Shown: positions 822 to 5,255 of the stretch, piece after piece
Layout: every line of letters begins with the position of its first letter
How positions within the stretch are numbered: the stretch's first letter is position 1
Source of the DNA: Anaerolineaceae bacterium
GTDB lineage: Bacteria > Chloroflexota > Anaerolineae > Anaerolineales > Anaerolineaceae
Direction of reading: 5' to 3'
DNA length: 64,000 nt
Assembly: GCA_016841365.1 (NCBI GenBank)
Contig: JAENZI010000002.1
Span: forward strand, 1 to 64,000
Position numbers and translations under genes: made by a program
The notes under the pieces: generated by a model
What the model was told of the DNA's origin: nothing
Database searches by the model: none
The model's input: the letters and a program-made list of their open reading frames with translations, nothing else

Positions 822-1235
822 TTATGCTTCAGAGTCATCTTGTTGTTTTTTCGGCTGGCAAGCGTGCCGGCTGTAAATGAAAAGTAATAAATAGGCTGCC
901 CACAAAAGCGTTGTCAGTGTGATATAAGTGTGGAACTGTGGCAAACTTCGCCACAACCTGTGTAGCATCGCGTAGCTGAAACTGACCAGCGATGCAATCT
1001 GCAGGATCAGGCTCAACCGCCACCCCCAGATGCAGCCTTTGGGCTCTAAACGCAGCCAGCGGATGCCAAACCATGGGAAGGTAGTGACCGCAAGGTTGAG
1101 CACAATAGCGATGGTCATCAGCCACAGTGATAGCTCAATGCCATGTTCGATATGCGCCAGTGAGCTCCCATACAGGTAAATTAAAAATGCTAGCGGATGA
1201 AATAATTCAATAATACGTAGCTTGGTTTTGCTCAT
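822..1235 (-). CDS. Small four-helix membrane protein, unknown function
   Basis: A 137-residue protein that I do not recognise. Four hydrophobic segments (about residues 10-28, 33-55, 70-92 and 102-125) suggest an integral membrane protein with a short charged cytoplasmic tail (QPKKQQDDSEA). Its ATG shares one base with the TAA stop of the upstream methyltransferase gene, so the two are very probably translationally coupled. It is the last gene of a four-gene minus-strand run that also encodes two zinc-ribbon membrane proteins. No catalytic motif is visible, and no function should be assumed beyond membrane localisation. Confidence 0.7.
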   Translation of the reverse strand: MSKTKLRIIELFHPLAFLIYLYGSSLAHIEHGIELSLWLMTIAIVLNLAVTTFPWFGIRWLRLEPKGCIWGWRLSLILQIASLVSFSYAMLHRLWRSLPQFHTYITLTTLLWAAYLLLFIYSRHACQPKKQQDDSEA

Positions 1236-2008
1236 TATGCCGCCTCATTTCTGTGGGCAATAATCAAAAAGCGGTGGGCGGTGGTGACAAACTGTCCCTG
1301 CCGCTCGATAATTTGATGCAGTTCAATCAGTTTCTCCCGGTGGGTGTCAGGGATGAATTCCGGTACCTGCCATGGGATGGCTTTAAGATAGTAGACAACT
1401 GCACCGATATCCATAAAGGTCGTTTTCAGGGCAGCTTTTTCGGCACGCTCAACTGAAAAACCTGCCCGATATAACCCAGTTAATGCAGCTGCCATGCTCC
1501 AGCGATCATACGGGAAGGATAAATTTTCCTGTAACACCTGGTTTAACTCAAGGTTATCTAACCCGCCAACCTGCTGGGTGATGAAGGTGCCGCCGGGTTT
1601 CAATACCCGATAAAGTTCCTCGGGGATGAAGCTGTCGTGCCGGTTGATCACCAGGTCGAAGGTTGAATCATCAATAGGTAGGGGTTGGTCGTCTTTCGTC
1701 CGATGGAGTTTAACCTGAAGGGACGAGAGCCGAGCCTCAGCGATTGGCTGATTGGGCGGGTAGGCTTCTGTGGCGTGGGTTTCAGCTGGCAGCGGCGCAA
1801 GAGAGGCTAACAGCTCGCCGCCGCCCGTGCCCATATCGAGCAGGCTGTGGGCGGTGCCGAGATAACCCTTCACCAGGGAGACATAATCCCAGGGCGTGTC
1901 TTGCTGAATCATGCGTCCTTCCAGCCATTCAAAGTCCCATCCTGAAAAATGCGCTGCCTGGGCTTCTGAAGTAAGTTGTTCAAATTTTTCGATGTCTATT
2001 TGTGTCAC
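1235..2008 (-). CDS. Class I SAM-dependent methyltransferase
   Basis: A 257-residue soluble protein with the Rossmann-fold methyltransferase signature. Motif I (LLDMGTGGGE) is at residues 56-65, and the post-motif segment with LKPGGTF near residues 137-143 is typical of the Methyltransf_11 group. The substrate cannot be read from sequence; relatives are often annotated as ubiquinone/menaquinone- or rRNA-like methyltransferases without evidence. It sits 12 bases downstream of a zinc-ribbon membrane protein gene and overlaps the small membrane protein by one base, so it belongs to a compact operon. A role in modifying something handled by its membrane partners is inference only. Confidence 0.85.
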   Translation of the reverse strand: MTQIDIEKFEQLTSEAQAAHFSGWDFEWLEGRMIQQDTPWDYVSLVKGYLGTAHSLLDMGTGGGELLASLAPLPAETHATEAYPPNQPIAEARLSSLQVKLHRTKDDQPLPIDDSTFDLVINRHDSFIPEELYRVLKPGGTFITQQVGGLDNLELNQVLQENLSFPYDRWSMAAALTGLYRAGFSVERAEKAALKTTFMDIGAVVYYLKAIPWQVPEFIPDTHREKLIELHQIIERQGQFVTTAHRFLIIAHRNEAA

Positions 2009-2020
2009 AGGCTATTCTCC

Positions 2021-3130
2021 TTACGGCATTGTGATGCGTGGGCCTTCTTGTTTGCGGTTCCACTGACCGGGCCACACAGCCGGGATAATTGCGCTAAAAC
2101 CTGTGCCCAGCCCGAGGACCATTAGAAGCGCGCCAATCCATCTGATTTCAGGGATCGCCATTGCTAACAGCAGGCTGACCAGTGCCAGCAAGAACATGAT
2201 CCCTGCTGCACCTGCCAGCATGCCGGCGATACGCAGGCCTTTCTTGCGTGAGGCAATCCGCGGCCCCTGGATCGCACCTGTAACGCCGTTTATAATGATG
2301 ATTTGCGGCTCACCTTCATCATCCAGGTAGTAGGTTGCATAAAGCGGCAGCAGAATTTCGGTCCAGTTCAGGTTGTTATAAAGCGCCTTCACGGCGAAGT
2401 TTCGTTGATGCTGTGCCCCGCATGCGTCCTGGCATAACTGGTTCAGGATTTTTTCAACCTGTGGTTTTGCAAGCGGCCAGGCATCATCAGGCGGCAAATC
2501 GGGCACTTCAAGAATGGCATTCTCTAAAAGTTCAGGTTTGAAGTCCACCGCTTGCTTCAGGGGGTAATTGCCCGTCATCGACAGCCGGTTTTGATGTTCC
2601 TCAAGGGCTGGCGCACTGACATTGTCTACATGGGTGTTGAGTTCACCAAGGCGGGGTTCCCAGCGGATGCGGGTCTCGATTTGTTTCTGAGATTCCCACT
2701 GCCCATTCACAAAGATCTCTTTGGTGCTTTCAACCTGGTAGTCGAACCCGGCTTCCATCTGCCAGCGCCCGGTAACATCGCTATCCACCAGCCATAATGG
2801 CCAAAAGAGCTGCTGCGCTCTACTTGCCAGGTTTTCAGCGGTGTAGTCATCCGGTTTGATCCACAACCCAGAGACAAAATCGCGATAGATGGGCTGTAAT
2901 TGGTTTCGGTTGATCTTGAATGGCGTCATCTTTTCAGGCTCAGCCGGACGCAGACGTGCGGGTTGGGGGGCAAGTTCCGCCTTCCGGCAAAACGGACAGG
3001 TGATCCCCATCTGATCTGGAAGCACAAGGTAAACACGCTGACAGACCGGGCACCCGGCTGGCTGGCGGTTTGTCCCCCACAGAGACTGTGTTTCCTGAAT
3101 GATCTCGGACTTCGGAAGTGATTCGCTCAT
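2021..3130 (-). CDS. Zinc-ribbon membrane protein, copy A
   Basis: A 369-residue protein counted from the ATG at 3130, whose first base overlaps the last base of the preceding gene's TAA; upstream in-frame sequence lies inside that gene. One four-cysteine zinc ribbon is visible near the N-terminus (CPVC at 27-30, CPFC at 45-48). A long soluble middle region is rich in Trp and charged residues. A C-terminal pair of transmembrane helices lies at about 302-355. It shares layout and patches of sequence with the next gene upstream (the ILLP-Y and NGxTGAIxG-like segments before the helices), so the two are diverged paralogues. Function is unknown; homologues are usually just called zinc-ribbon domain proteins. 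Confidence 0.8.
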   Translation of the reverse strand: MSESLPKSEIIQETQSLWGTNRQPAGCPVCQRVYLVLPDQMGITCPFCRKAELAPQPARLRPAEPEKMTPFKINRNQLQPIYRDFVSGLWIKPDDYTAENLASRAQQLFWPLWLVDSDVTGRWQMEAGFDYQVESTKEIFVNGQWESQKQIETRIRWEPRLGELNTHVDNVSAPALEEHQNRLSMTGNYPLKQAVDFKPELLENAILEVPDLPPDDAWPLAKPQVEKILNQLCQDACGAQHQRNFAVKALYNNLNWTEILLPLYATYYLDDEGEPQIIIINGVTGAIQGPRIASRKKGLRIAGMLAGAAGIMFLLALVSLLLAMAIPEIRWIGALLMVLGLGTGFSAIIPAVWPGQWNRKQEGPRITMP

Positions 3131-4425
3131 TATTTTGCCTCCGATAGCCTGGCTTTGTTGAACAGGTTGATGCTGATGACCAGCCCCAGGATGAATAAGC
3201 CGATGCCTATTAAGATCGGGACAGGTTTTGCTTCTCCCATCATCATGCTGATGGCGCCGATCAAGCCAAGGATACCCCCAGGTGCCAGGATGGCAGCGAT
3301 CGCCAGCCAGATCTTCCACCAGGCGACCGGCTTCTGACCGGCGACAGCACCGGTTTGGCCGTTGACCATCACCTGGAAGACTTTATCTTCATAGTGATAA
3401 GCCGCCAGATATACCGGCAATAGAATGTAACGCCATGTTTCATCGGCAAAGTCAGCCGTCATGCTAAAGTTACGAACGTGAGAAGACGGGATATCCGCAC
3501 GGCATGCTTTTTTTGCTTGTTCTCTGATGGTTATTTTTGCCTGATCCCAGGCATCCGTCAGGGTGGTTTCATAGGCCTGTGCCTGCCAGCCTGCCAGATA
3601 TTCGGGTTCATAGCGCACAAGGTCAGTCAGGTTATAGGGATATATCTGCCTGAGGATTCTATAGCTGATGTGATTTTCAGCGCTGCCTTCAACCATCAGG
3701 TCGTCAACGGTGAGATTGACATCGCCATCTTCCCAGCGCCAGACAATTTTTGTGCGGGTTTCCCAGCTTTTGCTGCTGGCATTGTAGTGCCGATAGGTTT
3801 TTTTATAGCCGACTTCGGCCCGCCAGTGGGCATGGATGTTGGCATCAAATGTCCAGAAGGGCAGATAGATGCCTGAAAAGCGCCGGATGATCGTGCTGGC
3901 TGCCAGCTCATTTGGATGGAACCAGCCTTTACCCAGCCAGTCATTGGCCTGGCGTTGGGTCTGCTCGGGTGTAATTTTGAATGGCACCAAAAAGCGGGGT
4001 CGGAGCGCTTCATCGAGGCTGACGGTCACATTGACCTGGTTTGAGGCACAAAACGGGCAACTGGTGCTGATCGCGCCTTCGGGCACCGAAAGCTGACCGC
4101 CGCATGAATTGCATACTAACACCTGGCGTTTTGCGCCCCAGCCGCGATCAGATTGGGAAACAGTCTCCAGTGTAAATTCAAATTCATCCGCAGCCCTGCC
4201 GACGTTGACGGCTTTGAGCGGTGCGGCATAGCCGCAATATTCACACGCGATCCCGCCTTCGGATACATCGTAGGCGGTGCTTGCGCCGCAATTAGGGCAG
4301 GTAAATCGCTTAGGCTGAAATGTGTCGACCTTTTTCGGCTTGGGCGCATAGACAATAACACCCGGCACATGGGATTCGACCCGATGATATCCTTGTGGGG
4401 GTGCCCAGTTCGGATTTTCGGTCAT
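3130..4425 (-). CDS. Double zinc-ribbon membrane protein, copy B
   Basis: A 431-residue protein and first gene of the minus-strand operon. Two separate four-cysteine ribbons are visible: CPNC (43-46) with CEYC (61-64), and CNSC (105-108) with CPFC (123-126). A central soluble domain ends in an ILLPVYLAAYHY segment and an NGQTGAVAGQKP motif, followed by two C-terminal transmembrane helices (about 370-425). The layout suggests a cytoplasmic metal-binding and core domain anchored to the membrane. The downstream gene is a shorter paralogue with one ribbon. Known relatives are unassigned TFIIB-type zinc-ribbon proteins; DNA or RNA binding cannot be inferred from ribbons alone. An AGGAGC-like ribosome site precedes the ATG. 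Confidence 0.82.
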   Translation of the reverse strand: MTENPNWAPPQGYHRVESHVPGVIVYAPKPKKVDTFQPKRFTCPNCGASTAYDVSEGGIACEYCGYAAPLKAVNVGRAADEFEFTLETVSQSDRGWGAKRQVLVCNSCGGQLSVPEGAISTSCPFCASNQVNVTVSLDEALRPRFLVPFKITPEQTQRQANDWLGKGWFHPNELAASTIIRRFSGIYLPFWTFDANIHAHWRAEVGYKKTYRHYNASSKSWETRTKIVWRWEDGDVNLTVDDLMVEGSAENHISYRILRQIYPYNLTDLVRYEPEYLAGWQAQAYETTLTDAWDQAKITIREQAKKACRADIPSSHVRNFSMTADFADETWRYILLPVYLAAYHYEDKVFQVMVNGQTGAVAGQKPVAWWKIWLAIAAILAPGGILGLIGAISMMMGEAKPVPILIGIGLFILGLVISINLFNKARLSEAK

Positions 4426-4596: not shown

Positions 4597-5076
4597 ATGA
4601 CTTTAATAATCGATGGACATAATCTAATCCCGCGCATCCCAGGGCTAAGTCTTAGCGACCCAGATGATGAAGACAAACTGATCCATTTACTGCAAGATTA
4701 CGCCCGTATCCGGCGCAAATCAGTGGAGGTGTATTTCGATAAAGCACCAGTGGGGCAGGCAGGCGAACGCCGGTTTGGGCAGGTGAGAGCGCATTTTGTG
4801 CGTGACACAATCACTGCGGATGAAGCGATAATGGCGCGATTACAGCAGCTCGGGAAACGGGCAAAGAATTACACAGTTGTCAGCTCAGATCACCAGGTGC
4901 GGCGTGCGGCACAGGCAGTGCATGCTACGGTGATAACCTCCGAAGACTTTTCAGCAGCGTGGCAAGCACTGCAAGACTCAACACCTGAGTTAGATCCGCG
5001 CAATCGTCTGCTTGCTGAGGATGAGGTAAGTGAATGGGAGCAGTTGTTCAAGCGGGGACATCGTCCAGAGAAATAA
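4597..5076 (+). CDS. NYN/PIN-like RNase domain protein (YacP-like)
   Basis: A 159-residue protein with the NYN (PIN-like) fold signature. The LIIDGHN start supplies Asp6 and Asn9, further acids lie around residues 22-26, and the VSSDHQVRRAA segment carries the late acidic residue expected in the metal-binding site. Family members such as B. subtilis YacP/Rae1 are ribonucleases, Rae1 being ribosome-associated; activity here is inferred from the fold. It is transcribed alone, divergently from the zinc-ribbon operon. The start has no recognisable ribosome site and may be leaderless. The charged C-terminus (EWEQLFKRG) is typical of the subfamily. Confidence 0.85.
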   Translation: MTLIIDGHNLIPRIPGLSLSDPDDEDKLIHLLQDYARIRRKSVEVYFDKAPVGQAGERRFGQVRAHFVRDTITADEAIMARLQQLGKRAKNYTVVSSDHQVRRAAQAVHATVITSEDFSAAWQALQDSTPELDPRNRLLAEDEVSEWEQLFKRGHRPEK

Positions 5077-5255
5077 TATAACAAATAAGGTCTAAATAGT
5101 AAACTCTAATCTTAGTTTAATGACAAGCAATTTTTGATGAAGTATAGTTTCTATCAAGACACTAAACTTTTACTGGTATCAGGAGTGTCTTACACCATCT
5201 CAACCTGTGAACTTACGTTCAAAAAGGTGAAAGTGGTGGTTTCCTCCCTGAAGTT

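Follow-up and report, generated by a model that had tools for sequence, protein, structure and literature searches.

Four genes on the minus strand of an Anaerolineaceae contig

We analyzed a stretch of 64,000 nucleotides (the window) from an Anaerolineaceae bacterium (GCA_016841365.1, contig JAENZI010000002.1, positions 1 to 64,000), in which four tightly packed genes lie on the minus strand between positions 4425 and 822. The first two encode the zinc-ribbon membrane proteins Z1 and Z2, which are the main subject here, and are followed by genes for a methyltransferase (MT) and a small membrane protein (M4). The packing and coordinates given in an initial annotation of the window are confirmed by the open reading frames (ORFs). 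Judged from its ORF, homologue searches, alignment and a structural model, Z1 (3130..4425; 431 amino acids) is a YdjG-like membrane protein with two Cys4 zinc ribbons and a C-terminal membrane hairpin. Z2 (2021..3130; 369 amino acids) is assigned by its ORF, alignments and profile comparison as a paralogue of Z1 with a single Cys4 ribbon and a C-terminal membrane hairpin. The ATG at 3130 is taken as its start; the mechanical ORF begins further upstream, at 3319. One base is shared between stop and start codons of Z1 and Z2, and likewise of MT and M4, and 12 bases separate Z2 from MT. Promoter and terminator scans of the locus gave counts at or below chance level, hence its operon status is read from the gene spacing. 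Z1 and Z2 are not chance ORFs since both are conserved across tens of genomes.

The first ribbon of Z1 spans C43 to C64 (4234..4299) and the second C105 to C126 (4048..4113). The cysteines C43/C46/C61/C64 and C105/C108/C123/C126 show no variation across the 54 sequences aligned, comprising the window sequence and 53 of the 80 named loci described below. In Z2, C27/C30/C45/C48 form the ribbon (C27 to C48; 2987..3052) and are invariant among 36 aligned sequences (the window sequence and 35 of 40 Z2 loci). A separate alignment (n = 18) includes one single-copy relative (L026) whose available stretch is missing the first ribbon. Hydrophobicity and the structural models place a hydrophobic hairpin at the C-terminal end of both proteins, at residues 369-430 of Z1 (3136..3321) and 295-346 of Z2 (2093..2248). 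The architecture of one or two N-terminal Cys4 ribbons and a C-terminal hairpin that had been proposed for these proteins thus holds, with two ribbons in Z1 and one in Z2. Their proposed paralogy is borne out by 28% identity over 338 columns (E 8e-35) and a profile-profile probability of 100 over 326 columns. By these alignments Z1 and Z2 are paralogues, and Z2 is equivalent to a Z1 devoid of its N-terminus and first ribbon.

Neither protein has a Pfam or NCBIfam match over the curated cut-offs. The Z1 ribbons weakly resemble TFIIB-, HypA- and FORGETTER1-type ribbons, all below curated cut-offs, and a sequence search of solved structures returned a single weak ribbon match, to TFIIB (E 0.046). 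Domain scans of Z1 and Z2 detected no DNA-binding domain besides the ribbons. The predicted structures are confident, with a mean predicted local distance difference test score (pLDDT) of 94.1 for Z2 and 89.2 for Z1, and both models show helices, two strands of 27-36 residues, further helices, a third strand (29 residues) and the hairpin, in this order. Foldseek searches with the two models gave no match to a solved structure at E ≤ 0.001, which is not evidence of a new fold. VIA-align rows cover almost exclusively the helical hairpin; a row for a lipoprotein of Clostridioides difficile (4exr) is weak at Z 3.4 and was given no weight.

Conservation and history of the Z1-Z2 pair

The conserved unit at this locus is the pair of Z1 and Z2. 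A match to Z1 is present in 25 of 41 genomes, a count that includes the genome of the window, single-copy types and one remnant. In a profile-driven search of named genomes, in which the best 80 loci were kept and more exist, the profile score divides these loci into 42 with a paired-type Z1 and 38 single-copy relatives. Paired-type Z1 is followed by Z2 in 40/42 loci, and the remaining two stop at a contig end (L099, L132). In a class-wide sample, 54 of 396 genomes, spread over 12 families, have a strong Z2 match (at least 142 bits); a Z1-type match adjoins it on the same contig in 49 of the 54, with about 1 kb between the genes in G566 and G592. The start of Z2 follows Z1 at a contig end in G006, which makes 50/54 with Z2 beside a Z1-type gene, and in G556 the Z2 locus is cut by a contig end. 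A sample of the phylum contains a strong Z2 in 6 of 400 genomes. The initial annotation had suggested examining gene neighbourhoods for co-occurrence of all four genes; Z1-Z2 linkage is indeed retained (40/42 and 50/54), while that of MT and M4 is not.

Both genes are on the same strand in 47/47 paired loci. An overlap of the Z1 stop with the Z2 start is possible in 33 of these 47 if the start codon nearest the stop is used; three of the 47 loci duplicate contigs already counted. Two loci carry extra DNA between Z1 and Z2, about 980 bases in L111 and 300 bases in L123. The insert of L111 (7214-8211) resembles an MNT-HEPN toxin-antitoxin module: one of its genes is HepT-like (Pfam HepT-like_2, 1.4e-34), and the other has a weak, sub-threshold likeness to nucleotidyltransferases. 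ORFs of equal lengths occupy the same place in L197 (2364-3361). A conserved third partner was sought and rejected: outside the genus-type block and loci of the type found in the sister genus g28, the recurrent neighbors of the pair are all from broad families, each present at no more than 4 of 45 loci. By eye, these families are response regulators, ABC transporters, MerR-like regulators and aminotransferases.

All 42 paired-type loci are labelled Chloroflexota or one of its subgroups, except one. This locus (L103) is a 3.8-kb contig labelled Wenzhouxiangella sp., a genus of Gammaproteobacteria, which has the genus-type order Z1, Z2, MT, M4, upp at 54-81% identity and is probably a misbinned Anaerolineaceae contig.

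In a tree of 108 sequences, Z2 (35), paired Z1 (37) and single-copy proteins (36) each fall on one side of a branch, with supports of 100, 86 and 96, respectively; the tree comes from a quick search with Shimodaira-Hasegawa-like approximate likelihood ratio test (SH-aLRT) supports only and has some long end branches. The branch leading to Z2 is long, and most Z1 subclades have a counterpart among those of Z2. With its single ribbon, Z2 is on sequence grounds a derived paralogue and not a plain family member. The distance matrices of Z1 and Z2 correlate with r = 0.90 over 35 loci, a value reached in 0 of 2000 permutations. Shared host descent alone could give this correlation, so it demonstrates co-inheritance and not contact. 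The initial annotation had deduced a heteromeric assembly from the paralogy. Two paralogues kept together on the same strand fit a heteromer, and the heteromer itself is a probable reading of this pattern.

Relatives with a genetic link to SPFH proteins

Sequence comparisons firmly support membership of Z1 and Z2 in the "TFIIB-type zinc ribbon" family. A tblastn search with Z1 detected distant homologues in 12 plasmid records from six genera; those that carry an annotation are called zinc ribbon or hypothetical proteins. All five plasmid records opened (Comamonas, Paracoccus, Vibrio, Tsukamurella and Enterococcus) have an SPFH gene immediately upstream of the homologue. The order on the Enterococcus plasmid is SPFH-Z-TPM, and comparison of Z2 with this Z member gave an hhalign probability of 98.9. 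Among the single-copy named loci, SPFH is directly upstream in 16/38 and within about 6 kb in three more. The Comamonas protein (WP_224153207) shares 31% identity with Z1 over query residues 40-366 (tblastn E 1e-50), and the neighboring SPFH protein combines Band_7_1 with HTH_17, as does the SPFH protein of the genome studied here. However, the Comamonas gene is single and adjoins SPFH, whereas the pair is duplicated and lies apart from SPFH. Single-copy Z1-like proteins from Thermoflexales and other Anaerolineae belong to the same family and phylum (33-37% identity). They differ from the pair in that neither Z2 nor SPFH lies beside them at 7/7 loci (some with short flanks), and the tree groups them with other single-copy proteins.

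Two side observations concern the distribution of Z1 homologues. On the Paracoccus plasmid (L052:545-5263), "toxic anion resistance" and DUF2927 genes precede the Z1 homologue and SPFH. Z1-like genes are also found in eight unannotated phage records (H25-H32; human faeces, Listeria, Enterococcus; best E 2e-27), and these matches are probably bacterial DNA.

The studied relative of the family is YdjG of Bacillus subtilis, encoded in the sigma-W-controlled pspA-ydjGHI operon and described here from the available portions of the cited papers. YdjG consists of two zinc ribbons, an NTF2-like domain related to YpeB and a transmembrane segment (PMC11237479). YdjG and YdjH are membrane proteins required to localize YdjI and PspA; deletion of either ydjG or ydjH delocalizes both, and two-hybrid tests show an interaction between YdjG and YdjH (PMC8581546). 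The anatomy of Z1, with its two N-terminal ribbons and C-terminal transmembrane region, fits this published description. Moreover, the SPFH and TPM neighbors of the Enterococcus relative are the partner set of ydjG, which occurs with ydjH and ydjI. The locus studied here differs in having two adjoining paralogues, with Z2 reduced to one ribbon, and in the absence of PspA, TPM and SPFH beside the pair. The initial annotation could not name the system. This is partly answered by the family and its studied relative, whereas we found no paper on the pair itself and none with the name "TFIIB-type zinc ribbon-containing protein" in a literature search whose coverage omits most subscription journals. 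In the available portion of PMC11237479, the sole mention of Chloroflexi concerns a different domain.

Possible roles of the pair and its neighbors

We propose that Z1 and Z2 constitute a Chloroflexota-specific, probably heteromeric membrane anchor for an SPFH complex, and give this reading roughly even odds (about 0.5). It is drawn from family homology and anatomy. A YdjG-like gene would have been duplicated to yield Z1 and Z2, whose products might form a membrane-tethered zinc-ribbon scaffold, with Z2 taking the role of a second subunit. The hairpins would reside in the cytoplasmic membrane, and the ribbons and the common β-rich domain in the cytosol. There, the scaffold would most likely hold a band-7, YdjI-like SPFH complex at the membrane, as YdjG does in B. 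subtilis, and might help to maintain the envelope or to tolerate stress, with neither PspA nor the TPM protein YdjH taking part. The likeliest partner is an SPFH-helix-turn-helix (HTH) protein encoded elsewhere in this genome (G000:C3:147057-148100), unlinked to the pair, with a Band_7_1 match (at G000:C3:147111, E 2.9e-50) and a C-terminal HTH_17. An ORF of 177-201 amino acids precedes its gene (L087:3390-5101, on G000:C3); the product appears coiled-coil-like by eye, has no Pfam match and might act together with the SPFH protein.

If the anchor reading is true, zinc-ribbon anchors can serve SPFH envelope complexes in the absence of PspA, and the pair offers a natural two-gene unit for separating the roles of the ribbons. 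Proteins without a curated Pfam or NCBIfam match would now have a family and a likely partner. More tentatively, and rather unlikely in all its parts, Anaerolineae might possess a PspA- and TPM-free SPFH envelope module whose YdjG-type anchor has been duplicated into an asymmetric heteromer of two-ribbon Z1 and one-ribbon Z2, the second paralogue replacing the TPM subunit.

Several observations weigh against the anchor. Z1 and Z2 are likened to YdjG by its published description and through relatives. The stretches read around the 47 paired loci contain no SPFH match, and SPFH is near 0/7 single-copy Chloroflexota loci (some flanks short). TPM is likewise missing around the 47 paired and the 7 single-copy loci in a weak single-sequence search, which found none in 40 unpaired loci either. 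PspA (PF04012) was detected in 1/21 genomes, which is not the genome of the window (98% complete), and TPM (PF04536) in 0/21 including this genome; the B. subtilis controls were positive in both searches. The phage shock protein (PSP) system proper was rejected for this genome on these grounds. PspC occurs in 17/21 genomes and does not distinguish between the readings. Of the 21 genomes, 17 have a strong Band_7_1 match (E < 1e-20) and 19 are over the cut-off, including G004 and G011 by a weak match. These two congeners (69% and 92% complete) bear the pair and have only this weak match, from another SPFH protein, while G009, G025, G027 and G032 have a strong match without the pair. Thus, co-occurrence does not support a link between pair and SPFH. 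Furthermore, three genomes of the class sample (G690, G559 and G528) carry Z2 without an adjoining Z1; in all three a Z1-type match lies on a different contig, with an internal stop in the case of G559, and in G528 just 0.4 kb is left upstream of Z2. Finally, the tree is unrooted with respect to the order of duplication.

Some of these observations would suit a Z1-Z2 heterodimer that is self-sufficient and has left its SPFH association, with a function such as membrane-protein quality control or the binding of a nucleic acid or ribosome near the membrane. SPFH beside 0/47 paired loci, the two pair-bearing congeners without a strong YdjI-type SPFH match, and neighborhoods that beyond the genus and g28-type loci share only broad families are all consistent with such independence, as is the weak likeness of the ribbons to TFIIB-, HypA- and FORGETTER1-type ribbons. 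This genome nevertheless keeps an SPFH-HTH protein of matching architecture, and distant family members retain the SPFH link in several phyla; we therefore regard the self-sufficient heterodimer as possible yet somewhat unlikely. The ribbons might instead bind DNA or RNA polymerase in a membrane-tethered regulator whose membrane domain senses envelope state or zinc. Zinc ribbons are, however, also widely used as protein-interaction modules, all ribbon matches of Z1 are below curated cut-offs, and neither protein has a further DNA-binding domain. A regulator thus appears improbable, although the available text of PMC9239133 describes the YdjG ribbon type as DNA-binding and the weak ribbon matches include TFIIB.

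The last alternative involves the neighboring genes. MT (1235..2008; 257 amino acids, GTG start) is a class I S-adenosylmethionine (SAM) methyltransferase (Pfam Methyltransf_11, 1.6e-8), and M4 (822..1235; 137 amino acids) is by hydrophobicity a membrane protein with four hydrophobic segments, predicted as helices, that gave no match in family searches. The initial annotation had envisaged a membrane-associated modification complex of all four gene products, in which MT would methylate a substrate held by Z1, Z2 and M4. Tight packing in this genome and the presence of all four genes in 9 of 16 genomes of the genus (own included) speak for such a complex. In the same 16 genomes, intact Z1 occurs in 11, all of which have Z2, MT in 12 and M4 in 14; several genomes are only 66-81% complete, and the cluster of G006 is split over two contigs. 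The surroundings are kept in the genus as well (clpB, PIG-L, tpi and pgk by eye, NYN and upp); at the locus itself, upp lies downstream on the same strand and a YacP-like NYN gene upstream and divergent. Since the surroundings are conserved too, nearness of the genes alone is weak proof and the losses are informative. The pair and M4 are present without MT in L047 and L048, MT and M4 without the pair in L185, MT without the pair in L187 (at a contig edge), and M4 without pair or MT in L186. In L046 (congener G014; 4848-5121), the pair is deleted with MT and M4 intact: Z2 is gone and Z1 survives as two short fragments matching residues 6-61 and 336-376. In other genera, neither gene was seen beside the pair, as at L031 and L034 within the same family, except for M4, which follows the pair in the sister genus g28 (L091, L120) and in L125. 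No Z gene accompanies the MT homologues of G021, G037 and G039 within the 9-kb stretch read at each. These separate losses and the loci of other genera strongly disfavor the four-gene complex, which we consider very unlikely. PADLOC returned nothing for Z1, Z2, M4 or SPFH and matched MT to part of one model, mad2, over a methyltransferase-like region (6e-7); anti-phage defence was rejected as a role for the locus. MT and M4 are most likely neighbors of the pair by synteny and lie outside the conserved unit, MT as a neighbor within the genus and M4 within the genus and its sister genus.

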